Source of the DNA: Bdellovibrio sp.
GTDB taxonomy: Bacteria; Myxococcota; SpSt-1050
Assembly (NCBI GenBank): GCA_020725805.1
Contig: DYEF01000050.1
Span: forward strand, 1-50,933
Direction of reading: 5' to 3'
Length of the DNA: 50,933 bases
Below are positions 6,658 through 32,290 of this stretch, piece by piece. Positions within the stretch are counted from its first letter, which is position 1; each line of letters starts with the position of its first letter. The translations under genes and the position numbers were made by a program. The notes under the pieces were generated by a model that did no database searches, had not been told where the DNA came from, and saw only the letters and a program-made list of their open reading frames with translations.

Positions 6658-6674
6658 TAAGAAGAAAAGACTTT

Positions 6675-9666: not shown

Positions 9667-9673
9667 AAATACC

Positions 9674-10774: not shown

Positions 10775-10857
10775 CTTCATCCTCAGAAAAGGTGAGGATA
10801 GAATTTAATATCAATTTCAGCATATTTCAAGACAAAAGATTTGTTTTACCTTATTAT

Positions 10858-10886
10858 TTGACTTTTGGGGCTTGTTGTAATAGATA
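10858..10886 (+). promoter_or_regulatory. Candidate promoter for the zinc-motif miniprotein
   Basis: TTGACT at 10858-10863 is followed after 17 bases by TAGATA at 10881-10886. The -35 is good and the -10 is weak. It would give a leader of about 35 bases before the GTG at 10928. Confidence 0.3.
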
Positions 10887-10927
10887 GATTCTCCCTTTTG
10901 GGAATTTTTACCACAGGAGGTTTAGCT

Positions 10928-11164
10928 GTGACGAGAGAAGAGAAGAAATGCAAGGTCAAGGGTTGCAAACGCCCCTACAGAGCAAAGGGTTACTGTTCGA
11001 CACACTACAAGAGCTGGAGAAGGGGTGAACTCCCCAAGAAGAGATTCAGCTGGTGCATCAAGCCGGAATGCAAGAACAAGGCTGTTTATGGCAAGGTCTG
11101 TGCCGACCACTACAAGGGGATAAAGAAGAAGGCCGGGGATAACGCCACAGCACAGCAGGCATAA
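10928..11164 (+). CDS. Small protein with two tandem zinc-binding-like motifs
   Basis: This is a 78-residue basic protein. Two copies of C-x4-C-x9-C-x2-H are visible: CKVKGC...CSTH and CIKPEC...CADH, each typical of a structural zinc site. An almost invariant-looking KRPYRAKGYCSTHY stretch recalls small proteins annotated as 'vegetative protein' in myxobacteria; that link is from memory. The frame is open upstream to 10865, but the GTG at 10928 follows AGGAGG by 7 bases and gives a hydrophilic N-terminus, so it is the better start. It may bind nucleic acid. rocD starts 49 bases downstream with its own ribosome binding site. Confidence 0.8.
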   Translation: MTREEKKCKVKGCKRPYRAKGYCSTHYKSWRRGELPKKRFSWCIKPECKNKAVYGKVCADHYKGIKKKAGDNATAQQA

Positions 11165-11213
11165 AAGGCTTTCTTAAGATAAACCTTTTTAAGTCACATA
11201 AAGGAGACAGAAG

Positions 11214-12422
11214 ATGACAGGCAGAGAGATTATGGATATAACCGAGGAATATGGTGCCCATAATTATCACCCTCTTCCGGTGGTTCTGACCAAGGGCAAA
11301 GGTATATGGGTATGGGACAGCGAGGGGAAGAAATATATCGATATGCTGAGCTGTTATTCGGCGCTCAACCACGGACACAGACACCCTAAACTCATAAAGG
11401 CTGTAAAAGAGCAGATGAACAAACTTACCCTGACTTCAAGGGCTTTCTATAATGAACAGCTCGGCCCGTTCTGCAAGGAGCTCGCCCACTTTTGCAATAT
11501 GGAGATGGTGCTGCCGATGAACTCGGGCGCAGAGGCAGTCGAGACTGCCGTCAAGATAGCCCGCAAGTGGGGATATATAAAGAAGGGTGTAAAACACTAT
11601 AATGCAGAAATCATTGTCTGCGAAAATAATTTCCACGGCAGGACAGTTACAATAATATCATTTTCAACCGAACCGCTCTACAGGGATGAGTTCGGACCGT
11701 TTACTCCGGGTTTCAAGGTAATCCCGTTCGGTGATGCCGATGCACTCGAAAAGGCGATAACTCCCAATACTGTTGCCTTCCTTGTTGAACCCATTCAGGG
11801 AGAGGCAGGAATAAATGTCCCTCCGGATGGTTTTCTGAAGAAGGCCTACGAGATATGTAAAAAGAACAACGTACTTCTGATGTTCGACGAAATCCAGACA
11901 GGACTCGGAAGGACCGGCAAGCCCTTTGCCCATCAGTATGAGGAAGGTGTAAAACCTGATGTCCTGATACTCGGCAAGGCTCTGGGCGGTGGTATGTACC
12001 CTGTCTCGGCAGTCGTATCGAACAAAGAGGTCCTTGGTCTCTTTACGTGGGGAGAACACGGCTCAACATTCGGAGGAAATCCTCTGGCAGCATATATCGC
12101 AAGAGTTGCCCTCAAGGTACTGATTGAGGAGAGGCTCACCGAAAATTCCTATGAAATCGGCAATTATTTTATGGAGCAGCTGAGAAAGATTAAATCCCGC
12201 CATATTAAAGAGGTTAGAGGTAAGGGGCTTCTTATCGGACTCGAACTCCACAAAGAGGCCGGCGGGGCAAGAAGATTCTGTGAGGCACTGATGAACGAGG
12301 GACTCCTCTGCAAAGAGACTCACGACCACGTAATCCGCTTTGCACCTCCGCTCAACATCAGGAAGAAGGACATCAACTTTGCAGTCAAAAAGATAAAGAA
12401 GGTATTTAAGGAACTGGATTGA
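11214..12422 (+). CDS. rocD: Ornithine aminotransferase
   Basis: This 402-residue PLP-dependent class III aminotransferase converts ornithine and 2-oxoglutarate to glutamate semialdehyde and glutamate, linking arginine and proline metabolism. Seen directly: the N-terminal YGAHNYHPLP typical of ornithine aminotransferases, NSGAEAVE, NFHGRT, the FDEIQTGLGRTG segment with the pyridine-nitrogen-binding Asp, and the PLP lysine in LGKALGGG. STFGGNPLA is also conserved. Length equals the family norm. AGGAG lies upstream of the ATG. Acetylornithine aminotransferase is the main alternative, but the N-terminal signature favours RocD. Confidence 0.92.
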   Translation: MTGREIMDITEEYGAHNYHPLPVVLTKGKGIWVWDSEGKKYIDMLSCYSALNHGHRHPKLIKAVKEQMNKLTLTSRAFYNEQLGPFCKELAHFCNMEMVLPMNSGAEAVETAVKIARKWGYIKKGVKHYNAEIIVCENNFHGRTVTIISFSTEPLYRDEFGPFTPGFKVIPFGDADALEKAITPNTVAFLVEPIQGEAGINVPPDGFLKKAYEICKKNNVLLMFDEIQTGLGRTGKPFAHQYEEGVKPDVLILGKALGGGMYPVSAVVSNKEVLGLFTWGEHGSTFGGNPLAAYIARVALKVLIEERLTENSYEIGNYFMEQLRKIKSRHIKEVRGKGLLIGLELHKEAGGARRFCEALMNEGLLCKETHDHVIRFAPPLNIRKKDINFAVKKIKKVFKELD

Positions 12423-12690
12423 TTCCTTAATAGCTGACTGAATTTAGCAGAGTTAAGTAAAAAGTTCATTCCCTAATATTTCTTTGCAATCTTATTTTTG
12501 AAATTTCTTATCTCTGACTTAAACCGGTATCACTGTTCTTTTATCCCCCCCAAGTGGTATAAACCCGATAATAACTCCAAATAATTACATAAAATCAATA
12601 TGTTACAACACATTATACCTGGCACCTCTCTTACAGTCCGTATAAGGCAGACCCTTTAAAGATTCCGATTTTAATATTCTCCATATTTTC
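12423..12690. other. Non-coding gap between rocD and malic enzyme
   Basis: The 381 bases between rocD and the malic enzyme gene (12423-12803) contain no open frame with a credible start. This part is A+T-rich, with no strong hairpin and no recognisable riboswitch. The right-hand end holds the promoter described separately. Confidence 0.6.
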
Positions 12691-12720
12691 TTGACACTCT
12701 CTTTTAATAGCCTTAAGAAT
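12691..12720 (+). promoter_or_regulatory. Sigma70-like promoter for malic enzyme
   Basis: A perfect -35 TTGACA at 12691-12696 is followed after 18 bases by AAGAAT at 12715-12720. The predicted leader is about 77 bases, ending in AAGGAGG 7 bases before the ATG at 12804. Confidence 0.5.
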
Positions 12721-12803
12721 TTTAGCCGATGTGCAGTACGGCTTACATCTTTTTTATCAGAAATATTTTTTATCTTCGGGGGGAGTTTTAAGGAGGAAAA
12801 TTT

Positions 12804-14258
12804 ATGAAGAAGATTGACTTCTCGCTCAAGAATCTTCAGTCACTGTTCCCGAAAGAGTTTACCAAGGAGCAGATTTCAAAGGCTCAGACAATCTTTCTGA
12901 AAGAACTGGCCTTTACCCTGCACAAATTCTACAGAGGGAAGATAATGACCGTTCCCAAGGCCGGTATCTACGGCTTCAACTGGTTCAATATCTGGTACAC
13001 ACCCGGAGTATCGGTTGTATCCACTTCGATAAGGGACAATAACGATTTCTCCTTCGAACTCTCGAACAGGGGGAATCTCGTCGCTGTGGTTTCGGACTCC
13101 ACAAGAGTTCTTGGTGACGGGAATGTTACACCGTCAGGCGGCCTTGGCGTAATGGAGGGAAAGGCATTTCTGATGAAATATCTGGGCGGTGTAGATGCCG
13201 TTGCACTCTGTATTGACAGCAGGGATGAGAACGGAGTACACAATCCGCAAAAGATAATAGATTTTGTCAAGATGGCAGAACCGAGTTTCGGCGCTGTCAA
13301 TCTGGAAGATATCTCCCAGCCACAGTGTTATAAGGTTCTGGACACACTCAGAGAGGAGTGCCAGATACCTGTTTGGCACGATGACGCACAGGGGACCGGT
13401 TCCGTTACACTTGCAGGACTTATCAATGCGCTAAAAATTGTCAGGAAGAAGATAGACAAGGTAAAGATTGTATTTTACGGCGCAGGTGCATCTAATACCA
13501 CCATTGCCCGTCTTATCATAAAGGCCGGCGGCAATCCGGAAAATATGGTCCTCTTCGATACAAAGGGAGCACTCCACAAAAACAGGGCAGATATAAAGAA
13601 CGACCCGGCCTTCTACAGAAAATGGGAACTCTGTGAGCAGACCAATCCGCAGTGTATAGACGGGATTGAGGATGCCATGGAGAATGCAGACGTTCTGATA
13701 AGTCTCAGCAAGCCCGGCCCGGACACCGTAAAACAGGACTGGATCAGAAAGATGGCGGATAAGGCCATTGTATTTGTATGTGCCAATCCGGTACCCGAGA
13801 TTTATCCGTATGCGGCAAAAGAGGCAGGTGCATATATTGTGGCGACAGGCAGGGGAGACTTCCCCAATCAGGTAAATAATTCACTCGGATTCCCCGGGAT
13901 ACTCAAAGGTGCGCTGCTCGTCAGGTCCAGAAAGATTACCGACGAAATGGCAATCACTGCTGCATATTCCGTGGCAAAGTTTGCAGAGAAAAAGGGAATC
14001 AATCCCGAGAGGATAATGCCGACGATGGACGAGACAGAAGTATTTGCATACGAGGCGGCAGATGTTGCTATGGAGGCAATAAAAAACGGTGTAGCAAGAA
14101 TTAAAATTTCGAGGGACGAGGCATTCAGGACCACACTTAAGGATATAAAAGAGGCAAGGTCGGTTGTAAAGAACCTGATGGAGAAGGGATTTATAAAAAA
14201 GCCTCCGCAGAAGATGCTGGAAGAGGCCCTGCAAAAGGCAATAGAAAAAGTAAAATAG
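12804..14258 (+). CDS. Malic enzyme, NAD(P)-dependent
   Basis: This 484-residue cytoplasmic enzyme decarboxylates malate to pyruvate, reducing NAD or NADP. The malic domain shows the Tyr-containing YTPGVS region, SDSTRVLGDGN and the catalytic-lysine region EGKAFLMK. Metal-binding NLEDI and HDDAQGTG follow. The Rossmann domain starts at FYGAGASN, and ANPVPEI and FPNQVNN are recognisable. It is shorter than the MaeB fusion proteins and lacks a phosphotransacetylase domain. After the enzyme core, the last ~60 residues are helical and Lys/Glu-rich. AAGGAGG and an upstream promoter mark it as a single-gene unit. Cofactor preference cannot be read with confidence. Confidence 0.92.
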   Translation: MKKIDFSLKNLQSLFPKEFTKEQISKAQTIFLKELAFTLHKFYRGKIMTVPKAGIYGFNWFNIWYTPGVSVVSTSIRDNNDFSFELSNRGNLVAVVSDSTRVLGDGNVTPSGGLGVMEGKAFLMKYLGGVDAVALCIDSRDENGVHNPQKIIDFVKMAEPSFGAVNLEDISQPQCYKVLDTLREECQIPVWHDDAQGTGSVTLAGLINALKIVRKKIDKVKIVFYGAGASNTTIARLIIKAGGNPENMVLFDTKGALHKNRADIKNDPAFYRKWELCEQTNPQCIDGIEDAMENADVLISLSKPGPDTVKQDWIRKMADKAIVFVCANPVPEIYPYAAKEAGAYIVATGRGDFPNQVNNSLGFPGILKGALLVRSRKITDEMAITAAYSVAKFAEKKGINPERIMPTMDETEVFAYEAADVAMEAIKNGVARIKISRDEAFRTTLKDIKEARSVVKNLMEKGFIKKPPQKMLEEALQKAIEKVK

Positions 14259-14476
14259 GATAATAGCAGAATCCGGACCGAAATAAAAAAGCTGATAGGA
14301 TAAGCCTCAATCAGGAGCTGAATTGTAACCTCTAAATTTTACGAGTATTTATTTCTGACGGAAAATAATCAGCTCAATCTCTCTTCTGTTCCGACAATCA
14401 GTTTCATCCTGACAGGCACCCTGTATCCGGGCCTGACCGTAAATATCCGGGAGCAGCAACAGATAACGGCAATTAC

Positions 14477-14893
14477 CTACGGAATTGCCTTTGACGATGT
14501 AAATGATATATCTCCGTGCTTTACCCCCTTGAGCGAAATCAGCTTATCAGCGAGGGTATTGATCTCATCTGCCTTCCCCTTAACCGCAATGATTTCCAGA
14601 CAGTTGTCGTGGTCGAGATGAATGTGCTGTGTCGAGACGATGAACTTCTGATAATCGTGCTGGATGTCAGTCATTTTTGCGAGGAGTTCTCGTTTGTGGT
14701 GATTGTAGAGAAGAATTATTGCCCCTGCAATATTGCCTCCTGTCTCCCACGTCGTGTGAATCAGCTCCTTGCGGATAAGGTCGGCAATAGCCTTAGAACG
14801 GTTCGTATACTTCCTCCTCCTGATAAGCATATCGAACTTATCTATCAGGGATTTCTCGAGAGAGACACCAAAACGATAAATAATATCATCCAT
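14477..14893 (-). CDS. nikR: Nickel-responsive regulator NikR
   Basis: NikR is a ribbon-helix-helix repressor that binds DNA when its C-terminal ACT-like domain holds nickel. The 138-residue protein has the N-terminal RHH fold and the four nickel ligands spaced exactly as in the E. coli protein: His79, His90, His92 and Cys98 (E. coli His76, His87, His89, Cys95). AGGAGG precedes the ATG. It is the second gene of a minus-strand operon, 11 bases after the esterase-like lipoprotein, and the promoter region of that operon carries NikR-like dyads (17007-17034). No nickel transporter or nickel enzyme lies in the window. Confidence 0.95.
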   Translation of the reverse strand: MDDIIYRFGVSLEKSLIDKFDMLIRRRKYTNRSKAIADLIRKELIHTTWETGGNIAGAIILLYNHHKRELLAKMTDIQHDYQKFIVSTQHIHLDHDNCLEIIAVKGKADEINTLADKLISLKGVKHGDISFTSSKAIP

Positions 14894-14904
14894 AAAAAGC
14901 CCTC

Positions 14905-16965
14905 CTATTCTTCGAGGACCGCCCTTCCCTTGTAGGCAAGGTTATAGAAGAATGTCTTATACATCTCTATAGCCCTTGTATCGTAGAAGACCGGGAAGTG
15001 TCCCTGATCCTTGAACTGGACAAGGACACCTGTGGAAGACCCGGTTTTATCTTCTGTCTTTACATTATCAGGTAAACTGCTTTTATCAACCGCCTTAACC
15101 CCGTATTTTTCAAAGAACTCCCTGCTCCTGTATATCTCGCCGTAAGGGTTGACACCAATAGACATTGCAAGAACCTCTATTGCATCCGGAGGTGTATACG
15201 GGTCTATAGTCCCTTCTGTCATAAAAATATGTTTCGGTCTGCAGATACTCTCCTTACATACAGGATTTTTAATAAGCAGTCTGCCGTAATTGGCAGGGTC
15301 CGTCGGGTCCGCTATTATCTGAAGGATATTAAGTACAGGATGGAAGAGGTCAATATCATAGTCTCCCTCTTCGAGCGAAAGGAGTGTCCTTGCGACCTCC
15401 GGGATATCTATAGGTTCCGTCTTCTGATAGACCGAGATAATGAATCTTCCTCCGCCCTCGGAAAAGAGAGCCGCCTTTACATCCGGTTCAACACCTGCAA
15501 AGAGCGGACCTGTGAGCCCTCCCTGAGAGTGTCCGAAAAAGTATATTTTATCTTTATTGAATTTTATCTCCTTGCCGTTACAGCTGATTTCGGGAGCAAT
15601 TCTGTTTTTCATAAATATCTGCATCAGAACTACTGTATCAATGGCGGACTGCCTGAAATTGTCTCTCGTCGCCAGCATATTGTTTATATTGAAGGTCTTC
15701 ATCTCCACGTTCCAGTTACCTGTGTTTCTTGCACCATGAAGAGGCTGGTCGAATGAGACGGTTGCTATACCCTTTCCGGCCAGATTCTCTCCTATATCTT
15801 CATAGACAAATGATTTGTAGTCCCCGCCGGTCCCGTGGGCATAGAGCACGAGAGGGAAACCTTCTGAAGGCATCTCTGTATTCGGAAGGGTAAGATAGAA
15901 TCTGACATCCTCTCTCCACTGAATTACAGGATTACCCTTTTCGTCAAACTCGAACATTCCCGAGTCAGGATTGTCATACGGCGGAGCCCCCTTCTGGAAC
16001 TGGTATGTCTGAAATATACCTGTTATCCCGCAATATGCAGAAAGTTTTATATCCTTCTTTATCTCCCTAAATCCGAATTCGCCGTTTGTTACGACATAAT
16101 CACGAATCTTTATCAGATCCTTTACCGGGTCCGACGTGGTAAATACCGTCATTACCGCTATGTTATCCTTACTGACACCAACTGTTTTTAGATATTCATA
16201 AACAGGCTCATAGAGTTTTCTTGCCTTCTCGAGCCTGACATCTAAGAGTTCCGATTCGGACTTTGTAGATTCAAACTCCTTCAGACTCCCGAGAGGTTTT
16301 CCGTCCGCACCCTTTATTCCTCTCGTAAGAACCAGTGCATATCTGTTTTTGGGCCTCAGGACAAAACCGTTTTCCGGCGTAATAACGAGAGTATTGGAAC
16401 TTATATATTTATCTCCCTTTTCGACGAATCTCAAAAGTAGCGGAATTCTCTCACCCCTGTACTGATTCTCGGTAACATTGATAAGAAAGAGCGGTGAGTC
16501 CTTCTCTGTCGTTTTCAATGTGTCCTGCGGGAGGGAGGCTTCGTCAAGTTTGCCGTCAAACTTGATATACATTGCACCCTGAGTGGAGAATCCTGTAAAG
16601 TTGTATTTTGCGGTTTCGAGATATATATTCAGCAAATCAATGTTTTTCGGATTCGGAAAACCATCTATATTGAGAGTGCCATCCGAATTTATCAGCAGAT
16701 CGGACGGAAAGGGGAAGAAGTAGAAATTCTGGGGTTTCTTATCTTCGGGAATCCTGAAGTAGGCCTTTGTGCCCGGCACCTCTGAAATATCATTACCTGT
16801 ACCGGTATCCTGATATGCATCTTTTATCTCTGCAGTATCCGAAAGAGATACGGCATCCTCTCCTGATATATCTGCAACCTCATCACTGCAGTGTGTAAGG
16901 ATTACAAAAAGACATAACAGCACGGCGGAAAGAGATAAAGAGATAAATCTACTTCTGTAATTCAT
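14905..16965 (-). CDS. Alpha/beta-hydrolase-like lipoprotein
   Basis: This 686-residue lipoprotein has its signal ending at Cys26 (VILTHC), followed by an Asp/Ser-rich linker. Residues about 70-300 form a beta-rich, Ig-like module beginning with an FPFPSDLL motif that I associate with large secreted esterases of Myxococcota. The hydrolase domain has the oxyanion segment YAHGTGG (375-381), the nucleophile elbow GHSQGG (478-483, Ser480), and a likely catalytic His in DQGHFPV near the C-terminus. Substrate is unknown. AAGGA precedes the ATG. It shares a transcript with nikR downstream, so its expression is probably nickel-responsive through the operator array at 17007-17043. Confidence 0.8.
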   Translation of the reverse strand: MNYRSRFISLSLSAVLLCLFVILTHCSDEVADISGEDAVSLSDTAEIKDAYQDTGTGNDISEVPGTKAYFRIPEDKKPQNFYFFPFPSDLLINSDGTLNIDGFPNPKNIDLLNIYLETAKYNFTGFSTQGAMYIKFDGKLDEASLPQDTLKTTEKDSPLFLINVTENQYRGERIPLLLRFVEKGDKYISSNTLVITPENGFVLRPKNRYALVLTRGIKGADGKPLGSLKEFESTKSESELLDVRLEKARKLYEPVYEYLKTVGVSKDNIAVMTVFTTSDPVKDLIKIRDYVVTNGEFGFREIKKDIKLSAYCGITGIFQTYQFQKGAPPYDNPDSGMFEFDEKGNPVIQWREDVRFYLTLPNTEMPSEGFPLVLYAHGTGGDYKSFVYEDIGENLAGKGIATVSFDQPLHGARNTGNWNVEMKTFNINNMLATRDNFRQSAIDTVVLMQIFMKNRIAPEISCNGKEIKFNKDKIYFFGHSQGGLTGPLFAGVEPDVKAALFSEGGGRFIISVYQKTEPIDIPEVARTLLSLEEGDYDIDLFHPVLNILQIIADPTDPANYGRLLIKNPVCKESICRPKHIFMTEGTIDPYTPPDAIEVLAMSIGVNPYGEIYRSREFFEKYGVKAVDKSSLPDNVKTEDKTGSSTGVLVQFKDQGHFPVFYDTRAIEMYKTFFYNLAYKGRAVLEE

Positions 16966-17000
16966 TTATATTTCCTTGTAAAGATTGGTAAAATATATGT

Positions 17001-17043
17001 ATTATATATGTAATCGGCATAAAAATATTACATAGTATGTAAT
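17001..17043 (-). promoter_or_regulatory. NikR-like dyads on the promoter of the lipoprotein-nikR operon
   Basis: TATGTAAT (17007-17014), 12 bases, then ATTACATA (17027-17034) make an inverted repeat 28 bases long, the same overall length as known NikR sites (E. coli GTATGA-N16-TCATAC). A third half-site, TATGTAAT at 17036-17043, pairs with ATTACATA to form a 17-base palindrome. On the minus strand a perfect TATAAT (17006-17001) directly abuts the dyad, which then covers the -35 and spacer. Binding here would block transcription of the operon at 16965, giving nickel-dependent autoregulation. The assignment of NikR is inference. Confidence 0.5.
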
Positions 17044-17115
17044 GGGTTATTCATTGTTCCGGTCATCCCGGGAATAAATATTACATAAAACAGGTTTTTT
17101 TGCAATACATAATAT

Positions 17116-17159
17116 TTGACGGGGAGATTTTCCGATGGCTGTAATATCTGATATATTAC
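17116..17159 (+). promoter_or_regulatory. Promoter with overlapping palindrome for the plus-strand lipoprotein operon
   Basis: TTGACG at 17116-17121 and TGTAAT at 17140-17145 are separated by 18 bases. A palindrome, GTAATAT (17141-17147), 5 bases, ATATTAC (17153-17159), overlaps the -10 box, and a further ATTACATA lies at 17080-17087. It resembles the half-sites of the divergent promoter, so both directions may answer to the same regulator. The leader to the ATG at 17245 would be about 93 bases. Confidence 0.45.
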
Positions 17160-17244
17160 CCGGCTGTAATCTGTCTGTTTTCCTACATCCTTATGACAAG
17201 AATTTTCTTTAAAACGCAAAAAAACCATATTAGTATAAGGATTT

Positions 17245-18018
17245 ATGAGGTATTACACTACGGTATTCAGCCTGCTTATATCTGTATTTGCCTGCATCAC
17301 AAGTGACAGCGGCGGCGGGGCATCCGCATACGAGGCTTTTGTGGCAAATGTGGACAGGATAATCGTGGACAGCGAGATAAATATTTCCCAGCCCGTGCGG
17401 ATAGGAATAGATGGTTATTTCGATGACGATTGCTCCGAACTCGCGCGGATCAATGCCGAAAAATCAGATTCACCCAACAATATCGAACTGACAGTTTACG
17501 GAAAACGCAAACTAAATGCAAAATGCAACAGTAAAAAAGTAATATATTTTGGCTCCATCACGATTACCGGCCTTACAGAGGGGAGATACAGAATCAGAAT
17601 AAACAGGGACGATAATCTCATTAAGTATTTTTCCGTAGTCAGGGCAAACACAAATGATACCGGCTCCGGTCCGGATACAGGTTCAGGGTGTACCGACGAG
17701 GTAGCCCCGCTCAGTATGGCAGATATAACGACTGACGGATTCAATTCGGCCAGAAACCAGAAGATACCTTTCGGGACACCAATTACACTGATTGTCAAAG
17801 GGAGTATATCCGGCGAATGCAGAAGTTTTAAGGAATTCAGATATGACAAACTCGGCAATAATCTCTACGTGGATGTCATTGCCGAGTACTGCCCCGCAAA
17901 CTGCAATGAAACTTACAGAGATTACAGCGAGACCTATGTCATTACGGGTCTTGCCAGAGGGAAATATACACTTTATGTGAATAACTCCGTTGAAATATCA
18001 TTCGAAATAACAGATTAG
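17245..18018 (+). CDS. Lipoprotein with two tandem beta domains
   Basis: This is a 257-residue lipoprotein with its signal ending at Cys17 (ISVFAC) and a Ser/Gly-rich tether. Two domains of about 100 residues follow. Each has a central Cys pair, a hydrophobic strand and the closing pattern ITGL-x2-G-x-Y. They are separated by a Gly/Ser/Asp/Thr linker (DTGSGPDTGSG). I do not recognise the family. The domains look like surface beta-sandwiches, probably each with one disulfide. AAGGA precedes the ATG. The acyltransferase gene begins 6 bases after the stop, so the two are co-transcribed from the promoter at 17116. Confidence 0.75.
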   Translation: MRYYTTVFSLLISVFACITSDSGGGASAYEAFVANVDRIIVDSEINISQPVRIGIDGYFDDDCSELARINAEKSDSPNNIELTVYGKRKLNAKCNSKKVIYFGSITITGLTEGRYRIRINRDDNLIKYFSVVRANTNDTGSGPDTGSGCTDEVAPLSMADITTDGFNSARNQKIPFGTPITLIVKGSISGECRSFKEFRYDKLGNNLYVDVIAEYCPANCNETYRDYSETYVITGLARGKYTLYVNNSVEISFEITD

Positions 18019-18024
18019 AGGCCA

Positions 18025-18756
18025 ATGTATCCTTTTATAAGAGGCTATGAGAACAGACTGGACAGATTCGATATAAGATTCATTGCCCGGAATATCTTTC
18101 TGGCAGGGATAATGAAACTCTATTTCAGGTACGAGGTCTTCGGATTCGAGAACATCCCTAAAGAAGGCCCCGGCATAATCGTTATGAACCACGGAATTCT
18201 GCCTCTGGACGGTTTTCTGCTCGGGATGGAGATACTCACGAGACTCTCGAGACTCCCCAGAGGACTGACCGACCATATAATATTCAATGTCCCGTTTTTA
18301 CGGGAATTTTTTCTCTCTGCGGGAATTGTGGACGGCAACAGGGAAAACGCTATGAGAATCCTTTATAAAGGCGGATTGCTGATGGTAATGCCCGGCGGTG
18401 CAAGGGAAGGTATAAAGAAGCCCGAAGATAAATACAGGATAAACTGGGAGGGGAGAACCGGATTTATCAGAATTGCCCAGATGAGCGGTGCACCGGTCAT
18501 TCTCTCCTTCTGCTACGGAATCGACGATATATACGAATGGATTCTGCACAAAACGGGAAGAAAGACAGAAGATATCGGGGTGCCTCTTCTGATGGGACTG
18601 GGAATCCTTCCTATACCTGTCAAATTAACACAGGTGGTTTCAGAGCCTGTTTATATCCAGAAATCGGAAGATGCAGAAAAAGTACAGAAAAAACTGCTCA
18701 GAAAGATGAACATACTATACAAAAAGGCAAGGGATTTAAGCCTCAGAAGAAAATAG
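18025..18756 (+). CDS. Lysophospholipid acyltransferase-like protein
   Basis: This 243-residue protein belongs to the PlsC/LPLAT fold and probably transfers acyl groups to a lipid hydroxyl at the membrane. The catalytic motif reads NHGILPLD, that is H-x5-D, unlike the H-x4-D of PlsC but like TMEM68/MGAT-type enzymes. The second motif, MPGGAREG, also fits that branch (PGGxRE). No clear transmembrane helix is visible beyond amphipathic N-terminal segments. AGAGG lies 5 bases before the ATG. It is translationally close to the upstream lipoprotein, which could point to envelope lipid modification, but that is speculation. Confidence 0.82.
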   Translation: MYPFIRGYENRLDRFDIRFIARNIFLAGIMKLYFRYEVFGFENIPKEGPGIIVMNHGILPLDGFLLGMEILTRLSRLPRGLTDHIIFNVPFLREFFLSAGIVDGNRENAMRILYKGGLLMVMPGGAREGIKKPEDKYRINWEGRTGFIRIAQMSGAPVILSFCYGIDDIYEWILHKTGRKTEDIGVPLLMGLGILPIPVKLTQVVSEPVYIQKSEDAEKVQKKLLRKMNILYKKARDLSLRRK

Positions 18757-23837: not shown

Positions 23838-23959
23838 AACGACCTCCGGAATACGTTACATATAATATCCGATGACACCAAATTCAATTATTTAAATGCC
23901 TCAAATCAATCAAAACCTTCTTGATTATAAACAATTGTTATGCAATAAAAACAGAAGTT

Positions 23960-25114
23960 ATGGATAATACAGATAACATTTCGCTCAAAAAGGCTTTTTT
24001 AAAGATACTGCTTATCTTTCTTGTCTGGAGGGGTGCGCTCTTTCTCTTTGACTTTATCGGGATGAGTTATACTTTTGAGAGAACAAATAACTCAAACAAG
24101 GACTATCAGGCATATCCTCAGAAAGAACGATATTTCTTAGATGGCTGGTTCAGATGGGATTCCGGCTGGTATAAGAGAATCGCAGAAAGGGGATATTACA
24201 TCGAAGGTCATCAGAGCGATGTGGCATTCTTTCCGCTCTTTCCGTATCTCTCGAGATATCTGGGCTATATAGTCGGCTCACATTTTCTGGCAGGGTTTCT
24301 CATCTCGAATTTCTCTACACTCTTTGCAATATTCTTTATGTATCTGATTGCCCTCTCAATGACGGACGAAGAACGTGCAAAAAGGGCAGTTATTCTGCTT
24401 CTCTTATTCCCGGCATCCTTCTTTTTGTCCGCCTACTACACAGAGGGCCTCTTTCTGCTGACCATTACCGGCAGTACTTATTTCTTTTTAAGAAAGAATT
24501 ACTTTCTGTCCGGAATCTTCGGAATGGCAGCAATGCTCACCCGCTCGACCGGAATAATCCTTTTCATTGCATTCGGGTTGTATCTCTTTTACCAGCTTAT
24601 CAGAAAGAGAGAGAAATTCTCCTTTTCAATGTTATTCCTTCTGCTCATCCCTTCCGGGCTGATTGTCTTTATGCTTATGCTCAAATTCCAGGTCGGTGAC
24701 CCGTTTGCATTTTCAAAATTTCAGGCTGGATGGGGAAGGCATTTCGTCTTTCCTCTCTTTACACCTTTTATAGAACTTTACAGGGTAAACTGGTCTTTCC
24801 CCCGCGATGATGTCAATATACAGAAATTTATGGAGGCTGTAACCTCGCTCTTCTTTCTGGTCATTGCATTAATAATGATATTAAAAAAATACCACCCTGT
24901 ACTCTCAATGCTCGTCCTGTTCGGAGTCCTGATGCCGCTTTCAACCGGAAAGGTAATGTCGATGATAAGATTTGCGACTGTCCTCTTTCCGGCATTCTAC
25001 TATTTATCCGACCTCTGTGAAGACCGGAGAATCGAAAGATTCATTATTTTTATGTTTGCCTTCTTCCTTGCAATTTTCAATCTGAGATTTCTTAACTGGT
25101 TCTGGGCAGGATAA
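23960..25114 (+). CDS. PIG-V-like membrane mannosyltransferase
   Basis: This is a 384-residue polytopic membrane protein with about ten hydrophobic segments. A first extracytoplasmic loop carries RWDSGWY, and FFPLFPY follows, as in the GPI mannosyltransferase II (PIG-V) fold and its bacterial relatives. These use polyprenyl-phosphate sugars to glycosylate substrates outside the membrane. The frame is open to a TTG at 23921. The ATG at 23960 is my choice, though its ribosome binding site is weak. The next gene starts 4 bases after the stop. It opens a four-gene operon with a radical SAM protein and two exported proteins, one of which could be its acceptor. Confidence 0.82.
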   Translation: MDNTDNISLKKAFLKILLIFLVWRGALFLFDFIGMSYTFERTNNSNKDYQAYPQKERYFLDGWFRWDSGWYKRIAERGYYIEGHQSDVAFFPLFPYLSRYLGYIVGSHFLAGFLISNFSTLFAIFFMYLIALSMTDEERAKRAVILLLLFPASFFLSAYYTEGLFLLTITGSTYFFLRKNYFLSGIFGMAAMLTRSTGIILFIAFGLYLFYQLIRKREKFSFSMLFLLLIPSGLIVFMLMLKFQVGDPFAFSKFQAGWGRHFVFPLFTPFIELYRVNWSFPRDDVNIQKFMEAVTSLFFLVIALIMILKKYHPVLSMLVLFGVLMPLSTGKVMSMIRFATVLFPAFYYLSDLCEDRRIERFIIFMFAFFLAIFNLRFLNWFWAG

Positions 25115-25118
25115 TACA

Positions 25119-26690
25119 ATGCATTTCGTAATCAGATTCGAACCACCGGAGATAATAAATGTTAACTATAATTTTCATTCGCGTATCAGACCCGTTATGC
25201 CGGATGCGGAATTAAAGGAAGGAGACACTGTCATATTCAGAGGAGAGGAACCCCTGACAAGATCCGAATTCTATGAGATTGCCAACCGACTCGCCCCGAA
25301 AGGCATCGATATAATTTTCGAGACGCTGGGTCTTACATTCAATAACCCCGATAACCTGCCCTACATCTTCTCGAGATACAGGGTCAAAGAGATTCTTATA
25401 AAAATCTTCAGCCTGAATTTCCCCGTCAATGACAAATTCTTCTCATACATTGGTACGAGTATGAAGACCCTTCTGGGACTTGACAATTTACTCAACACAG
25501 GTTTTCAGAATGTCAGCATACTGACCTATATCAATCAGGATAAATTTCTCAACAGAATCAAATCCGTCTACGACTACAAAAACGAAAAGAAACTGAAGAA
25601 TCTGTATATAGAGCTTGATAGAGGTCTCCCGATAGAGAGAAGAACCGCCATATTAAAAGACCTGCTGGAGAAATTCGGGGAGGCAGAGGATATAATTGTC
25701 AGGAATAATGATTTCGATATAAGACTCAATGATATAAATGCCGGCAAAACCGAAATCAAATCAGACCCGGAAAGCGGCACACTGAATCTGGTACTGAGAA
25801 ATTTCTGCACTAACAACTGCACTTTCTGTACTACCCGGATTGTCCAGAGGGCGTATAATGCCCCCCTCCCTTTCGATTCGAAAGAGAGAGTGATAAAGGA
25901 TATCGGGCCGCATATAAAAAAACTGAAAAGGAAAAACCTGTTTGAAATCGTTGCCGTAGAGCCGCTCGAACACCCGCATATTCTGGAGATTCTCTCAGAA
26001 ATCAACGAATACGGATTTAGGAATATCAGGCTTCTGACACACGCAAGAGGACTGAAGGATAAGGACCTGCTGGAAAGGCTAAAAGGCCTTAATGTCAGGG
26101 AAATCATAATTCCGGTTACCTTTTACTCACCTGAATCAGCGGCAAAAAATGTAGGAGACCCTGAGGCATTTAATGACCTGAAGAGTGCCCTGAAAAACAT
26201 ATCGGGCGAAAAGCATATATCATTTACTTTCAACATTATTATTTCAAAACAGAATTATGAGGATATAGAAAAGATAGCCCAATTTCTGCGTTCCCACAAT
26301 ATTACGAATTTCAATATAAATCTGGCTCTCCCCTCAATCGAGGATAAAAGGTATTATCTGCCTTACGCCGTAAGTTTCACGGACCTGATGAAATCCGTTA
26401 AAAAGATCAAAGATACAGAACTCAAAAACAAAACAGTTCTTTCTCTTGCCTATATTATACCACCCTGCGTGATTGCCGGATATTTTGAAGAGGATATTAT
26501 AAAAAAGATAAAGGCAGAACACTCCAAAATCACCAAAAAGTCATTGTCTTCAAAACGGGATTTTTCCAGACATAAATCAACCGTCCCCTGCAAAAAGGCA
26601 GAACAATGCAGATACCGGGACTTTTGTGCCGGAGTCAACAATGTATATACAGAGACCTTCGGGGATAATGAATTCAGGCCTCTGATATGA
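25119..26690 (+). CDS. Radical SAM protein with a degenerate first domain
   Basis: This 523-residue protein contains a radical SAM cluster motif unusually far inside the chain: C-x3-C-x2-C at Cys230, Cys234 and Cys237. The 229 residues before it contain no cysteine, yet repeat the order of elements of the second half: GEEP versus VEP after a strand, a helix, then strand-rich (beta/alpha) segments. This looks like a duplicated TIM-like barrel whose first copy lost its cluster. Cysteines at 450, 491, 497 and 503 form a SPASM-like C-terminal cluster region. Its stop overlaps the next start (ATGA). Substrate is unknown; peptide or lipid modification at the envelope is possible from context. Confidence 0.8.
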   Translation: MHFVIRFEPPEIINVNYNFHSRIRPVMPDAELKEGDTVIFRGEEPLTRSEFYEIANRLAPKGIDIIFETLGLTFNNPDNLPYIFSRYRVKEILIKIFSLNFPVNDKFFSYIGTSMKTLLGLDNLLNTGFQNVSILTYINQDKFLNRIKSVYDYKNEKKLKNLYIELDRGLPIERRTAILKDLLEKFGEAEDIIVRNNDFDIRLNDINAGKTEIKSDPESGTLNLVLRNFCTNNCTFCTTRIVQRAYNAPLPFDSKERVIKDIGPHIKKLKRKNLFEIVAVEPLEHPHILEILSEINEYGFRNIRLLTHARGLKDKDLLERLKGLNVREIIIPVTFYSPESAAKNVGDPEAFNDLKSALKNISGEKHISFTFNIIISKQNYEDIEKIAQFLRSHNITNFNINLALPSIEDKRYYLPYAVSFTDLMKSVKKIKDTELKNKTVLSLAYIIPPCVIAGYFEEDIIKKIKAEHSKITKKSLSSKRDFSRHKSTVPCKKAEQCRYRDFCAGVNNVYTETFGDNEFRPLI

Positions 26691-27610
26691 AGAGAATATC
26701 ATTATTTTTATTTTTTATCCTGAGCTGTACAAAAACTGACTACTATAGTGATATAAAAAAAGACTGCGACCATAAAAGGGCAAAGGAATATTTCGAAAGG
26801 TTCAGCAGCAAAGGCGACCCCAATATATTTACCGTTATCGATGCAATGGCTGACTGCAGATCCGAAGAGATGGAAAGATTTCTGTCCGAAGAATATGCAA
26901 AATCATCTGAAAATATCAAAGGACATATCTATAAGAAACTTACCCGGAATAAGAGCAGAATATTTCTCGATACGGTACTGGGCATCCTTATTAACAAAAT
27001 CCAGACGAACCAGGATTACAGCACAGAACTCAACTATATCAGGGAGACAGACCCGTCATTTACTGAAAAGAGATACAACGAATATCAACTGAAACTTGAA
27101 AATGCCAGAAAAAACAAAAATCTGACCGCCATCGAGATCTATTCTGACAACATCAGAGCGCTTTCAAAGGTATTAAATATCAACAGTGAAGATACAAAGC
27201 TCAAGGAAGATATCGCAGCAATCAGGTCAGAGAAAGAGAGAGAAGATTTATATCAGAAATTTCTCGATGCCACAATGAATCAGGAGATGGGACGGGCATA
27301 TAATATTTTCAAAAAACTATCAGCAAACAAACACATAAGATTCAACGACAAAACAGCAAAACTGGAAGAGATACTCAGGCAGATATCCGATACCGAAGAA
27401 AAATTCTATGAGACAGCCCACAGACAGGATATGCTGATGATTGAGATAGAAAAGGAAAAAAGGGCCAAAAACGAAAATAGAGTAAAGAAGATGCAGGAAA
27501 AACTCCAGTCAGTCAAATCCGATATGGTCTTTAAGAAAAGGGCTCTTGACAGAGCGGCAAAGAAACTCGAAATCGTCAGGGAATTATTCGAAGAGGTCAG
27601 GATAAAGTGA
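26687..27610 (+). CDS. Helical/coiled-coil lipoprotein
   Basis: This is a 307-residue lipoprotein; the very short signal ends at Cys14 (FILSC). The mature part is almost entirely helical and charged. It has a TPR-like middle and a heptad-rich segment near residues 225-300 (KEKRAKNENRVKKMQEK), suggesting a coiled coil. No catalytic motif is seen and I do not recognise the family. Its start overlaps the radical SAM stop, and its own stop overlaps the next GTG start, each by 4 bases. Expression is therefore strictly coupled with both neighbours. It could be a scaffold or periplasmic partner. Confidence 0.75.
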   Translation: MKRISLFLFFILSCTKTDYYSDIKKDCDHKRAKEYFERFSSKGDPNIFTVIDAMADCRSEEMERFLSEEYAKSSENIKGHIYKKLTRNKSRIFLDTVLGILINKIQTNQDYSTELNYIRETDPSFTEKRYNEYQLKLENARKNKNLTAIEIYSDNIRALSKVLNINSEDTKLKEDIAAIRSEKEREDLYQKFLDATMNQEMGRAYNIFKKLSANKHIRFNDKTAKLEEILRQISDTEEKFYETAHRQDMLMIEIEKEKRAKNENRVKKMQEKLQSVKSDMVFKKRALDRAAKKLEIVRELFEEVRIK

Positions 27611-28188
27611 AAAAAACTCTCATTGTCCTTATCTTTTTAACATTTGTTCTGGTCTCGTCCGTCTTTATTTTCGACAAGTATTATATGCCCCTCTCCTGTA
27701 TTCTTTCTGACCTTAGCAGCTGTATTCAAAAGGCATCAGAATCGCAGAGTGCTGGTCTCATCAAACGTGTATGTGATAAATTACAAGAGGATAAATGTAT
27801 TGAACTTCTGGGGATATTGCACTCCAGAGCGATGGACAATCTCATCCCACCAGTCAGCAATGAATATTGTAACCGCAGCGAATCTGCCTTCTGTGCATTT
27901 TCATCAATCGCATACAGCATATCGGGAGACCGGAAAAATGCCCATATATTTGCCCAAAAGGGTTGTGAACTCAATGAAGGAGTCAGTTGTGCCATACTTG
28001 CCGGAATAGAACTTGATGAAGACAAATCAGAAGAGGCACTCAGGACTTCCCTCAAAGGTTGTCTTCTGAACTCTGCCGCTGCCTGTGCGATAGCCGGAAC
28101 CATTATGATTGAAAAAGGGGAAGAGAAAGAGGGAATGCAGTTTATCGACAGGTGTTGTCAACTTGGTGGAGAAGATTGCTGTGAATAG
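27607..28188 (+). CDS. Membrane-anchored Cys-rich helical repeat protein
   Basis: A 193-residue protein with an N-terminal hydrophobic anchor (residues 4-22) and a Cys-rich exported domain. Six C-x7-C pairs are present: 31/39, 56/64, 88/96, 120/128, 152/160 and 184/192. The last five recur every 32 residues exactly. Disulfide-bridged helix pairs with C-x7-C are the hallmark of Hcp/Sel1-like repeats, although those usually repeat at about 36 residues. The start is GTG, overlapping the upstream TGA. It ends the four-gene operon. Function is unknown; it might be a binding scaffold or the substrate of the operon's radical SAM or glycosyltransferase. Confidence 0.8.
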   Translation: MKKTLIVLIFLTFVLVSSVFIFDKYYMPLSCILSDLSSCIQKASESQSAGLIKRVCDKLQEDKCIELLGILHSRAMDNLIPPVSNEYCNRSESAFCAFSSIAYSISGDRKNAHIFAQKGCELNEGVSCAILAGIELDEDKSEEALRTSLKGCLLNSAAACAIAGTIMIEKGEEKEGMQFIDRCCQLGGEDCCE

Positions 28189-28207: not shown

Positions 28208-28235
28208 TTGACATTACATATTTCAATGCTAAATT
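28208..28235 (+). promoter_or_regulatory. Extended -10 promoter
   Basis: A perfect TTGACA at 28208-28213, 16 bases, then TAAATT at 28230-28235 preceded by TG (extended -10). Transcription should begin near 28242, about 15 bases upstream of the ATG at 28257, just before CGGAGG. Confidence 0.6.
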
Positions 28236-28256
28236 GTAAAATTAACGGAGGTGTTT

Positions 28257-28877
28257 ATGAAATCAAAATACTCTATCTTAGGTATTGGTATTTTACTCTC
28301 TTTTATAAGCTTTACGCTCAATGCAGAAGATGTAAAGACAATAAAAGCCAATAGAGTCATTCAAAATGAAAAGATTGGCACTGTTAGTCAGACAACTATT
28401 GATAAACAGGAAGAAGATACTCTAAAAAGCAAGTTTTTTGCCGGCGGAAACTATGATATATCCTCAGGACCAAAATTGAGTTTAGGTTATTATTTTCACA
28501 AACACTTTGGTGCAGAGCTCGATTTCGGCTTCTATATAAATAACAGGAGAGATGAATATGCAGACCTTGGAGTTACTAAACTAAATAATTATCTATTTAA
28601 TCCATCGATTAGACTAAACATACCGGTTCATTACTCCAAGTGGTCCGTACTTTTAGTCTCTGTTTATAGTGGAATCCTTATTCACAAACCCGAGAGAGAA
28701 GATATGGGCATCGGGAACAGAACAGGTATTGCCCTCTCAGATGAAATATTTCTCTTAAAAGATAGGGCTACTTCACTACGTCTATCTGGCGGTGTTGAGT
28801 ATTTTACCTACAAGTCCGCTCAAGAGGGGAGCGGTTTTGATACCAATTTTGGCATAGGCTTTAATTATTATTTTTAA
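28257..28877 (+). CDS. Outer-membrane beta-barrel-like protein
   Basis: This 206-residue exported protein has a Sec signal ending near LNA-ED. A polar segment of about 35 residues follows, then alternating-residue amphipathic strands (LSLGYYFHKHFGAELDFGF, FNPSIRLNIPV, SLRLSGGVEYFTY). It ends in a C-terminal Phe (FNYYF), the pattern of small OmpW/OmpA-type barrels. GGAGGTG sits 5 bases before the ATG; the GTG at 28251 lies inside that site and is less likely. It has its own strong promoter and is 20 bases upstream of the large PKD lipoprotein, so the two probably share a transcript. Confidence 0.8.
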   Translation: MKSKYSILGIGILLSFISFTLNAEDVKTIKANRVIQNEKIGTVSQTTIDKQEEDTLKSKFFAGGNYDISSGPKLSLGYYFHKHFGAELDFGFYINNRRDEYADLGVTKLNNYLFNPSIRLNIPVHYSKWSVLLVSVYSGILIHKPEREDMGIGNRTGIALSDEIFLLKDRATSLRLSGGVEYFTYKSAQEGSGFDTNFGIGFNYYF

Positions 28878-28897: not shown

Positions 28898-31800
28898 ATG
28901 AAAAGGTCAGTAGTTTTTATTTTGTTCGCACTTGTATCTATCTATGCAATTTCCTGTTCAGAGGAAGAAAAATTCTTCCCGGAGATAATTATCTCTGCAC
29001 CTGAGAGTGCCCGCATAAATACACCTGTATTGTTTGACGCATCACAATCAAAGGACAAAGACGGTATTATTGACGAGACCACATTTTCATTTGACTTCGG
29101 TGACGGGAGTGAAAAAGTGAGTGGTGTTTCAAAGGCGACACATACATTTACAAAGGCAGGAGATTATAAAATAACAGTAAAGGTCTCTGATAACGACAAA
29201 AATGAATCCATAAAAAGTATAATGATAAGCATTAAAAACAATCTTTCACCGGTCGCCGCCTTCACCTCGCCAGAAAAGGGGAGAATCAACACAGAGATTA
29301 AATTCGATGCGACATCATCATCCGACCCCGATGGAAGTATTGCAGATTATTCATTCGATTTTGGTGATTCAAGTGAAAAAGTGAATGGCAAGGCCATTGT
29401 TTATCACAAATATACAACAGCAGGTGTATATGATATTACACTTGAGGTTACAGACAATGAAGGTGCAAAGTCAAAAATTATTCACCAGATAGAAATTGTT
29501 GATAATCTCCCCCCGGTCGCCGCCTTCACCTCACCCTCAACATCTACAGAAGGAGAGATTATTACCGTTGACGCAACATCATCATATGACCCAGACGGAA
29601 ACATTGCAGAATATACACTTGATTTCGGCGATGGAAGCAATACATCAAAGACAGCCGTATCCAATCATATCTACACGAAGGCAGGAGAATATACTATCAA
29701 ACTAACTGTAAAAGACAATGAAGGAAAGGAATCAATCGCAGAAAAGATTATCACAGTGAATTCTCTGGCATCTCAAAGCATTCCTCCTAAGGCAGCCTTT
29801 ACTGCCCCCAGCACTGGTATTGTTAATTTTCCGGTTGTTTTCGACGGCTCAGCATCAGAATCAGGTTCGGGAAAGATTACTGAATACAAGTGGAATTTCG
29901 GAGACGGAAGTGCAGAGGTTAAAGGGATGGAAAGCCTTGTTAATCATACATTTTCATCAAAAGGAGTCTATACTGTATCTCTAACAGTTACATCTACACT
30001 AAAAGACGGAGCCACTACTCTCTCTGATACAATTTCAAAACAAATCACCATTGGCGAAGATGGAATAGCTGTTACTAAGATTGAACCCAATACAGGAACG
30101 TCTCTGGGTGGTACCGAGGTACTCATTACAGGAGTAAATTTCCCCAATGACGGAAGCATTAATGTATTATTTGATGGAAATGCAGGTATAGCGATTAATG
30201 TCCTTGATTCAACGAGAATTAAAGTGATTACGTCTCCAAACAATCCGGGCACAGTTGATGTTCTGATTACAAGCAGCAGAGGAAATGTATTGCTAAATGA
30301 CGGTTTTACCTTCTTTGGTTCTGACAACTATGCCACCACTGAATTCTGCCCAAAACTCCTCGTATCAGGAGGGACCTCACTTGGAATTAAGAGTTCAGAC
30401 GATGATGTCAATTATAATGTAAAACTCCCATTTGACTTTGAGTTTTTTGGAAAAAGATATGCAAAGGATTCAACACTCTATATAAGTACAAACGGATGGC
30501 TCTCATTCACAAATACATCTGCCCTGTTTAATCACTCGGCTATTCCATCAGCAAATAACCCCGCAACACTTATTGCCCCGATGTTTATGGATCTGGAGCC
30601 CGGGACAGAGGGACAGATTTATACTCAGACTTCAGGCACAGAGCCAAACAGGATATTTACGATTGCATTTAGAAAATTCACATCAAATCCCGGTCCGGGT
30701 GATGAATACAACTTTGAGGTCTCATTATACGAATCATCAAATGATATAAAATTTCAGTACCTCAATAATTATGACGACAACTATACAGATGGTTCTTTAG
30801 CCTTAATCGGTATTCAGGACATAAGTGTCGGTGGAACTCAGGCAAGTAGAAATTCATCTATCAGAGGGCTTGCACCCGGTGGAAGAGTCTATGTATTTAA
30901 GTACAACAGGCCCAATTATACCCTTCAGACCGATACAACTCTGACTATCTATAATCACAATCCAGACAATAACGGAGACATTGGAATTCAGGGTTCTATT
31001 ACAATAGATTTTACCAAGGAATTGAATTCAAATTCCATTACAAATAATATTACTATGACAGATTTGACCACAAGTAATAATGTCTCAATTAATCTCAATC
31101 TCTCATCTGATAAAAGGAGAATAACAATTACTCCCCAGAATCCTCTCGTGGTGGACAGAAAATACAGGATAAATATTCTCACCGGACTTACAGGCATCAA
31201 CAACTCCACATTCTCATTTGATCCAACAAAGGTCTCCTGCGGGCAGGTGAGTAATCCAACTACATATTCATTTGAAGTAACAGCAAGGGCAGGACTTGCT
31301 CAGACATTTAACCTCGGTATTGGTTCGAACCCGATGCAGATAAAACATCTCAAGAACTCAGAGTTCGCTTATGTGGTCAAGACAAACGGAAACAGAATGG
31401 AGTCCATTGAAACGAATGGAATGTATAGTCATTCAAGCATACAATTGCAGGACTGTACCACCCCGTCTTTTCTTGCTTTGAGCACCAATGATACTATCGG
31501 CTATGTATCCTGTCAGAACAACAGAGTTGCAGTTGTCAGCATTGACCCGAATAATTTTTATCAGATTGATACAAATGGTGCAGCCCCGGGTACTCAGTCA
31601 ATAAATGTCGGAAATCAGCCTGCCGGTATCGCTATCAGAAATACAAACGATAGGGTTTATCTGGCAAACTATAACGGAGATTCTGTCACAGTAATCAATA
31701 CGTCAACCTATGGTACCGTAACAACTGTAAATGTAGGGAATAATCCTATTGGTGTTACCATAAATAATCAAAAGAACCTTTTATATGTTGCAAACAGTGG

Positions 31801-32233
31801 AGATGATTCCGTTTCGATAATAGATATTCTAAGTGGTTCAGCAACAGAAAACAATGTAACTAATACTATAAACTTATCTAACTGCAACAACCCTTCTCAA
31901 ATTGCCGTAACTCCTGATGGTTCAAAGTATCTGGTTACATGTTCAGGTAATAATAGAGTAGCAATTGTTAATGCAAACAATAACACACAGATTACCAATG
32001 TAAATGTCGGAAATAATCCAGTGGGATTAGATATTACTTACGATGGAAAACTTGCTTATGTTGCTAATTTCAACGGAGATTCTGTAACAATAATCAATAT
32101 TGAATCAGGTACAGTATCACAGACAGTTTCGACAGGAGGAAACACAGACCCCTACTTTCTTACATTTATACCAAATACCTATACCGCACTTGTTACTCTC
32201 TACAACACAGACCAGATAGGAGTTATCAAGTAA
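28898..32233 (+). CDS. Giant PKD/IPT/beta-propeller surface lipoprotein
   Basis: This is an 1111-residue lipoprotein with signal ending at Cys20 (YAISC). Domains in order: four PKD repeats (about 28-390) with FDFGDGS-type motifs; one IPT/TIG domain (about 391-475); a nidogen-like region (about 480-670, STNGWLSFTN, APMFMDLEPG); an SbsA-like Ig domain (about 675-800); and a C-terminal YVTN/NHL-type beta-propeller (about 805-1111) with VGNNPVG-like blades at roughly 40-residue spacing. Such architectures are adhesive or ligand-binding. AGGAGG precedes the ATG. It is the second gene after the small barrel protein and is closed by a terminator at 32261. Binding partner unknown. Confidence 0.88.
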   Translation: MKRSVVFILFALVSIYAISCSEEEKFFPEIIISAPESARINTPVLFDASQSKDKDGIIDETTFSFDFGDGSEKVSGVSKATHTFTKAGDYKITVKVSDNDKNESIKSIMISIKNNLSPVAAFTSPEKGRINTEIKFDATSSSDPDGSIADYSFDFGDSSEKVNGKAIVYHKYTTAGVYDITLEVTDNEGAKSKIIHQIEIVDNLPPVAAFTSPSTSTEGEIITVDATSSYDPDGNIAEYTLDFGDGSNTSKTAVSNHIYTKAGEYTIKLTVKDNEGKESIAEKIITVNSLASQSIPPKAAFTAPSTGIVNFPVVFDGSASESGSGKITEYKWNFGDGSAEVKGMESLVNHTFSSKGVYTVSLTVTSTLKDGATTLSDTISKQITIGEDGIAVTKIEPNTGTSLGGTEVLITGVNFPNDGSINVLFDGNAGIAINVLDSTRIKVITSPNNPGTVDVLITSSRGNVLLNDGFTFFGSDNYATTEFCPKLLVSGGTSLGIKSSDDDVNYNVKLPFDFEFFGKRYAKDSTLYISTNGWLSFTNTSALFNHSAIPSANNPATLIAPMFMDLEPGTEGQIYTQTSGTEPNRIFTIAFRKFTSNPGPGDEYNFEVSLYESSNDIKFQYLNNYDDNYTDGSLALIGIQDISVGGTQASRNSSIRGLAPGGRVYVFKYNRPNYTLQTDTTLTIYNHNPDNNGDIGIQGSITIDFTKELNSNSITNNITMTDLTTSNNVSINLNLSSDKRRITITPQNPLVVDRKYRINILTGLTGINNSTFSFDPTKVSCGQVSNPTTYSFEVTARAGLAQTFNLGIGSNPMQIKHLKNSEFAYVVKTNGNRMESIETNGMYSHSSIQLQDCTTPSFLALSTNDTIGYVSCQNNRVAVVSIDPNNFYQIDTNGAAPGTQSINVGNQPAGIAIRNTNDRVYLANYNGDSVTVINTSTYGTVTTVNVGNNPIGVTINNQKNLLYVANSGDDSVSIIDILSGSATENNVTNTINLSNCNNPSQIAVTPDGSKYLVTCSGNNRVAIVNANNNTQITNVNVGNNPVGLDITYDGKLAYVANFNGDSVTIINIESGTVSQTVSTGGNTDPYFLTFIPNTYTALVTLYNTDQIGVIK

Positions 32234-32260: not shown

Positions 32261-32290
32261 AAGGCGTCAGTACCTCTGACGCCTTTTTTT
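32261..32290 (+). terminator. Intrinsic terminator after the PKD lipoprotein
   Basis: AAGGCGTCAG (32261-32270), loop TACCT, CTGACGCCTT, then a T tract. The stem is perfect over 10 base pairs. Its core GCGTCAG/CTGACGC is the same as in the terminator at 23104. Confidence 0.9.

Follow-up and report, generated by a model that had tools for sequence, protein, structure and literature searches.

A compact four-gene unit encoding a GT-C glycosyltransferase, a tandem radical SAM protein and two helical exported proteins that is, as far as can be seen, restricted to one genus

The stretch of DNA analysed here (the window) covers positions 1 to 50,933 of contig DYEF01000050.1 from Bdellovibrio sp. (assembly GCA_020725805.1). 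It contains four genes that run in one direction and follow one another at +4, −4 (ATGA) and −4 (GTGA) bases, so that the compact arrangement originally predicted is borne out by the ORF coordinates (Table 1). The same four genes occur in the same order, spaced by +2, −4 and −4 bases, in the sole congeneric genome at hand (the congener, G001; MAG SKW273 ‘Deltaproteobacteria bacterium’, JAOAFA010000104.1). The proteins of genes 1 to 4 are 82, 55, 57 and 60% identical between the two genomes, whereas third codon positions are 34–44% identical. This combination of conserved proteins and low third-position identity shows that all four genes are real.

Table 1. Positions of the four genes and of the features that flank them in the window
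Feature	Position	Strand	Description
29-bp conserved block	23921..23948	+	TTGATTATA-N3-AATTGTTATG-N-AATAA, directly 5′ of gene 1
Gene 1	23960 (ATG)..25114	+	384-aa multi-pass GT-C-type glycosyltransferase (PIG-V / PMT_2 / ALG10-like)
Gene 2	25119..26690	+	523-aa tandem radical SAM protein
Gene 3	26687..27610	+	307-aa protein, predicted all-helical, secreted or lipid-anchored, long coiled coil at C-terminal end
Gene 4	27607 (GTG)..28188	+	193-aa protein, predicted membrane-anchored Hcp-like disulfide solenoid
Promoter-like site after gene 4	28208..28235	+	TTGACA-16-TAAATT, 10/12; consensus match only; outside the four-gene unit
OMP (outer-membrane barrel) gene	28251-28877		After gene 4
PKD/TIG/beta-propeller gene	28898-32233		Lipoprotein-like product; after OMP gene

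The surroundings of the unit differ between the two genomes. On the 5′ side the neighbour is a divergent HIT gene in the window and a different radical SAM gene in the congener, and the upstream region cannot be aligned apart from a 29-bp block, of which 25 positions are the same at the equivalent place in the congener. The alignment score of this block was reached by none of 2000 shuffles, and the block has a single match in the window when up to three mismatches are allowed. A TTG at 23921 would give a longer gene 1 ORF that overlaps the block. Read as codons, however, eight of nine third positions in the block are identical, as against 34–44% in the coding parts, which argues that the block is non-coding and that gene 1 starts at the ATG; the longer ORF was dismissed on these grounds, and the block is a probable promoter or leader. 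Plus-strand promoter matches inside the operon (25092 and 26473) are weak, and the whole region yields 31 matches where 30 are expected by chance.

On the 3′ side, gene 4 of the congener is followed directly by a penicillin-binding protein (PBP) gene. The sequence before this gene is nearly identical in both genomes (TTTTTTGACAGA...AAAATCTGAATTATAAA), and the conserved PBP promoter comes directly after gene 4 in the congener; in the window it is separated from gene 4 by the two genes of the OMP/PKD pair and a strong terminator (32261–32285). An extension of the operon to the OMP and PKD/propeller genes was dismissed, because neither gene follows gene 4 in the congener, in which no barrel gene was found, and the pair stands separately, in the same order, in two further copies (C287 and C252) in an order-level relative (G002). 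To judge by this occurrence, the pair is an independent module unrelated to the four-gene unit, and the promoter-like site that precedes it would serve the pair. The four genes have stayed one compact unit in both genomes of the genus while both edges changed, and the unit is well bounded at both ends. Since genes further downstream (PBP, TsaD, GH57 and DUF4912) are also syntenic in window and congener, adjacency by itself argues only modestly for a joint function. Elsewhere in the window, a 1293-aa protein with DUF7619, Big_5 and HYDIN-type Ig domains (43254–47135) is probably a large surface protein.

Gene 1 scores at or above the curated cut-offs of three Pfam families, PF13231 (30.2 bits, cut-off 26.1), PF04188 (27.2 bits, cut-off 22.4) and PF04922 (27.1 bits), and contains the RWDSGWYKRIAERGY motif. 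Homology thus shows it to be a GT-C glycosyltransferase and upholds the PIG-V-like transferase of the original prediction. GT-C enzymes of this kind use a polyprenyl-phosphate sugar donor on the outer face of the inner membrane, and gene 1 should by analogy do likewise. Of 193 genomes of the phylum, 98 have homologs of gene 1, the best outside the genus (434 bits) being in G002. This relative carries two copies, neither on the contig that holds its gene 2 homolog and both with other neighbours, and the partners of gene 1 in the window are unlike those in the other genomes examined. Gene 1 also evolves far more slowly than genes 2–4 and occurs widely without them, so that it may be merely co-transcribed.

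The other three genes are rare. Relatives of gene 3 were found in two of 193 genomes of the phylum, those of gene 4 in two of 195, and those of gene 2 (E ≤ 1e-25) in five of 195. When the genome contigs were scanned with gene 2 as a single-protein query there was no match; an alignment of gene 2 retrieved the congener and the order-level relative only. The complete set is present in both genomes of the genus and dissolves outside it within the phylum, so that the conserved neighbourhood that had been looked for holds at the level of the genus and fails elsewhere. As far as can be seen, the four-gene combination is restricted to the genus.

Two matches to the radical SAM domain (PF04055) indicate that gene 2 is a tandem protein, as had been claimed, but its halves are not equivalent. 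The C-terminal half (about residues 215–523) gives a strong match (70.4 bits) and carries the CxxxCxxC motif (C230/C234/C237) together with C450, C491, C497 and C503, which account for the seven cysteines of the protein, all common to the congener. The N-terminal half (about residues 1–205) contains no cysteine, falls below the cut-off (18 bits, E = 0.0035) and retains a GEEP segment in the place where active radical SAM enzymes have GGEP. The homolog in G002 has CxxxCxxC in both halves, its N-terminal half keeping CNNRCRVC and scoring 41 bits to the radical SAM model. In the light of this comparison we read the N-terminal half of gene 2 as a decayed radical SAM domain that has lost its cluster. 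The C-terminal half, where alone the motif and the radical SAM fold coincide, is probably the catalytic one.

The further cysteines of gene 2 had been described as SPASM-like. Four auxiliary cysteines are indeed present and would be enough for one extra cluster at most, but the seven-cysteine SPASM motif, which provides for two auxiliary clusters, is absent. Gene 2 resembles the radical SAM/SPASM peptide maturases in having further cysteines C-terminal to a radical SAM core; it differs from them in the number of these cysteines, in its dead N-terminal duplicate and in an operon without a precursor peptide. An antiviral assignment (PADLOC) was rejected, since it amounted to a generic viperin match (4e-5).

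The best partial NCBIfam matches of the C-terminal half are to W_rSAM_matur, HxsC4, AhbD and HxsC, all far below cut-off. Although residues 226–521 align with positions 20–334 of the 335-position HxsC4 profile, the scores of 38.3 and 42.4 bits are far from the curated cut-offs of HxsC (TIGR03977, 267.9) and HxsC4 (NF038332, 500). Outside the order, gene 2 is most closely related to ~800-aa double radical SAM proteins in two further genomes (G014 and G044), and in a tree the C-terminal halves of gene 2, of its G002 homolog and of these tandem proteins form one clade (100/99). The relative in G014, which has the same architecture as gene 2, lies on the same 20-kb stretch as a genuine Hxs cluster with HxsB (516 bits, cut-off 370), HxsD (54.6 bits, cut-off 50), HxsA as an HxS-repeat peptide at L010 15563–15670, and an HxsC-like protein fused to a methyltransferase-like domain; HxsB was not detected in G044, a genome only 70% complete. 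In the window there is no HxS-repeat ORF, and HxsA, HxsB and HxsD do not accompany gene 2. The G002 homolog adjoins a beta-propeller lipoprotein, not Hxs genes; a link between that lipoprotein and the PKD/propeller protein of the window was dismissed as a common domain. By descent, then, gene 2 is kin of the radical SAM proteins of Hxs clusters, but the curated test does not make it an HxsC.

The window genome (G000), the congener and G002 each encode HxsB, over its cut-off, and an HxsA4 peptide, on contigs other than those of the operon or the gene 2 homolog. The peptide exceeds its cut-off in G000 and G002, and the congener copy was read directly. In the window genome the locus (L069, G000:C42, 5853–9667, minus strand) consists of HxsB, HxsA4, which has 18 HxS motifs and ends in GSW, and a 648-aa tandem radical SAM protein. 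The congener locus (L070) has the same layout, and CxxxCxxC is intact in both halves of the radical SAM protein in both genomes. The relatives of gene 2 and this co-presence suggest a possible working link between gene 2 and HxsA4. For His-Xaa-Ser systems, maturases have been predicted and a literature search found no product (PMC9062424).

The Hxs loci of other genomes show further variety. An HxsC-like radical SAM domain is fused to an apparent class I SAM methyltransferase domain (VLDVGCG / VLDIGCG) at L071 10216–12009 (+) and L010 13625–15481 (+), the methyltransferase-like domain replacing the second radical SAM domain of the G000 and G001 proteins. Large fusions of a B12-binding-type radical SAM N-terminal half (Sden_1168-like) with an HxsC-like C-terminal half are encoded on the minus strand at L010 11307–13583 and L011 15927–18170, where they adjoin the ~800-aa double radical SAM protein. 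Hxs genes also adjoin nitrogenase-like genes at L071 (G002:C59) 8253–18465 and L010 (G014:C95) 2356–18143. Those of G002 were checked and are NifH/CfbC-like (266 bits to nifH, below cut-off) and BchN/B-like, and those near the double radical SAM genes of G014 and G044 were recognized by eye only; an association between Hxs and nitrogenase-like genes is possible.

Genes 3 and 4 had been described as two exported proteins of unknown family, a description that holds for gene 3 alone. Gene 3 has no Pfam or NCBIfam match. Its model (pLDDT 87) is all helical, with helices at residues 221–259 and 263–292, and a fold search gave no match at E ≤ 0.001 among 140 weak hits; its sequence matches in the PDB, to synthases and designed proteins, seem to reflect chance similarity of helices. 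The predicted coiled coil is present as a terminal segment of ~85 residues, and the whole protein is 57% identical in the congener. The lipobox is weak (ILSC) and less canonical in the congener, and the claim that gene 3 encodes a lipoprotein is only plausible.

The 14 cysteines of gene 4 all fall into seven C-x7-C pairs, and all 14 are conserved in the congener. Eight pairs of cysteines are exactly 32 residues apart, and five of the C-x7-C pairs are spaced by exactly 32 residues. None of 20,000 shuffles reached seven C-x7-C pairs or eight exact 32-residue pairs, which substantiates the repeat first noticed in the sequence. Searched against the whole PDB, a two-sequence profile of gene 4 matched only HcpC (1OUV, 1.8e-8) and HcpB (1KLX, 2.4e-6) of Helicobacter. 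The AlphaFold2 model (pLDDT 84) consists of an N-terminal membrane helix followed by a regular solenoid of helix pairs, with a helix every 16 residues, as expected of a helix-turn-helix repeat protein of the Hcp/Sel1-like kind. Its fold matches are to TPR proteins and HcpC, with a probability of 1.0 and low TM-scores (0.27–0.55).

In the model each C-x7-C, C120/C128 among them, links the end of a helix to the beginning of the helix that follows. The Hcp disulfides likewise fasten each repeat, at its end, to the beginning of its successor (PMC3851747), and the same staple is found in Csep1P (PMC12904459). The positions of the seven pairs in gene 4 agree with this stapling, and VKOR and DsbA proteins are encoded in the window genome. 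The cysteines are best read, from sequence and model, as structural disulfides that bridge neighbouring helices rather than as a target of the radical SAM protein. Because inter-helix disulfides would account for them, a radical-SAM-modified Cys-rich protein is not an economical reading.

Gene 4 differs from HcpB and HcpC in several respects. Its repeat is 32 residues long rather than 36–38, the protein carries a membrane anchor at its N-terminus and not a clear cleaved signal, and it shares an operon with a radical SAM protein and a GT-C enzyme. Searches against Pfam up to E = 10 gave no match for gene 4, Sel1 (PF08238) included, and for the congener copy only TPR_8 (0.001); a Sel1 search of the genome found nothing at this locus. 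Gene 4 is accordingly filed as Hcp-like and not as a member of Sel1.

To our knowledge, no described system combines a GT-C enzyme, a tandem radical SAM protein, a helical exported protein and an Hcp-like solenoid. The original statement that nothing known is matched applies less well to the radical SAM protein, which has kin next to nitrogenase-like genes and, in one case, in an Hxs cluster; the idea of an envelope-directed operon of this mixture is supported. We tentatively favour the explanation that the four genes form a genus-restricted envelope unit, in which an accessory radical SAM protein of the Hxs type would be expressed together with a periplasmic glycosyltransferase and two helical adaptors of the periplasm. 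The four genes would be co-transcribed and act at the cell envelope. Gene 2 would be a cytosolic accessory maturase related to the radical SAM proteins of Hxs clusters, its dead N-terminal half perhaps serving in substrate docking or dimerisation, and its target would be a peptide or lipid precursor encoded outside the operon, with the HxsA4 of the same genome as first candidate. Gene 1 would transfer a polyprenyl-phosphate-linked sugar on the periplasmic side, and the exported products of genes 3 and 4 may hold or recognize the product there, the solenoid being stapled by disulfides whose formation VKOR and DsbA could aid.

Several lines of evidence point to this envelope unit. The operon is intact in the congener, where it shares the upstream block, and the position of the PBP promoter and the independence of the OMP/PKD pair set its downstream limit. 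Genes 2–4 diverge at one rate, and the HcpC/HcpB match, the oxidative folding proteins, the clade of tandem radical SAM proteins and the Hxs genes of G000, G001 and G002 are consistent with the roles proposed. Against it count the presence of the operon in only two genomes, the conserved synteny further downstream, the slow evolution and wide occurrence of gene 1, and the beta-propeller lipoprotein, in place of Hxs genes, beside the G002 homolog of gene 2.

Co-transcription without joint function is nearly as likely: a core glycosyltransferase gene would be followed by three fast-evolving, lineage-specific passengers with unrelated jobs. The slow evolution and wide occurrence of gene 1 fit this reading, as do the different contigs and neighbours of the G002 homologs of genes 1 and 2 and the conservation of housekeeping synteny downstream. 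However, translational coupling has been kept despite broken upstream synteny and an insertion or loss right behind gene 4, and three of the four products seem to be destined for the envelope.

It is unlikely that gene 2 acts instead on a small molecule or a lipid-linked sugar for gene 1, to yield a modified envelope glycan or glycolipid with genes 3 and 4 as periplasmic assembly factors. Genes 1 and 2 are adjacent, and gene 2 is weakly similar to cytosylglucuronate decarboxylase and tetraether lipid synthase, but such similarities (E about 2e-4) are shared by radical SAM cores in general and the operon has no further genes for making sugars or lipids. We consider equally improbable a scenario in which an escaped Hxs-type tandem radical SAM protein lost its N-terminal cluster and was recruited, with the GT-C enzyme, the coiled-coil protein and the 32-residue solenoid, into a dedicated system whose product would be a modified peptide, glycosylated and displayed in the envelope.

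Modification of Cys-rich peptides is common among radical SAM enzymes that carry extra clusters, and the original prediction had gene 2 introducing radical modifications (such as thioethers) into the exported gene 4 protein of the same operon, gene 1 glycosylating it and the product being displayed at the surface; with every cysteine at an Hcp disulfide position, HcpB and HcpC as the only PDB matches, oxidative folding proteins in the genome and a folded, TM-anchored solenoid in place of a small leader-core peptide, this is very doubtful.

A solenoid with an exact 32-residue repeat, stapled entirely by cysteines, would make an unusually short, rigid scaffold of repeats. The double radical SAM lineage, with one member in an Hxs cluster and another that has lost half its chemistry and moved to an envelope operon, represents a defined enzyme that can be tested against HxsA and envelope substrates.
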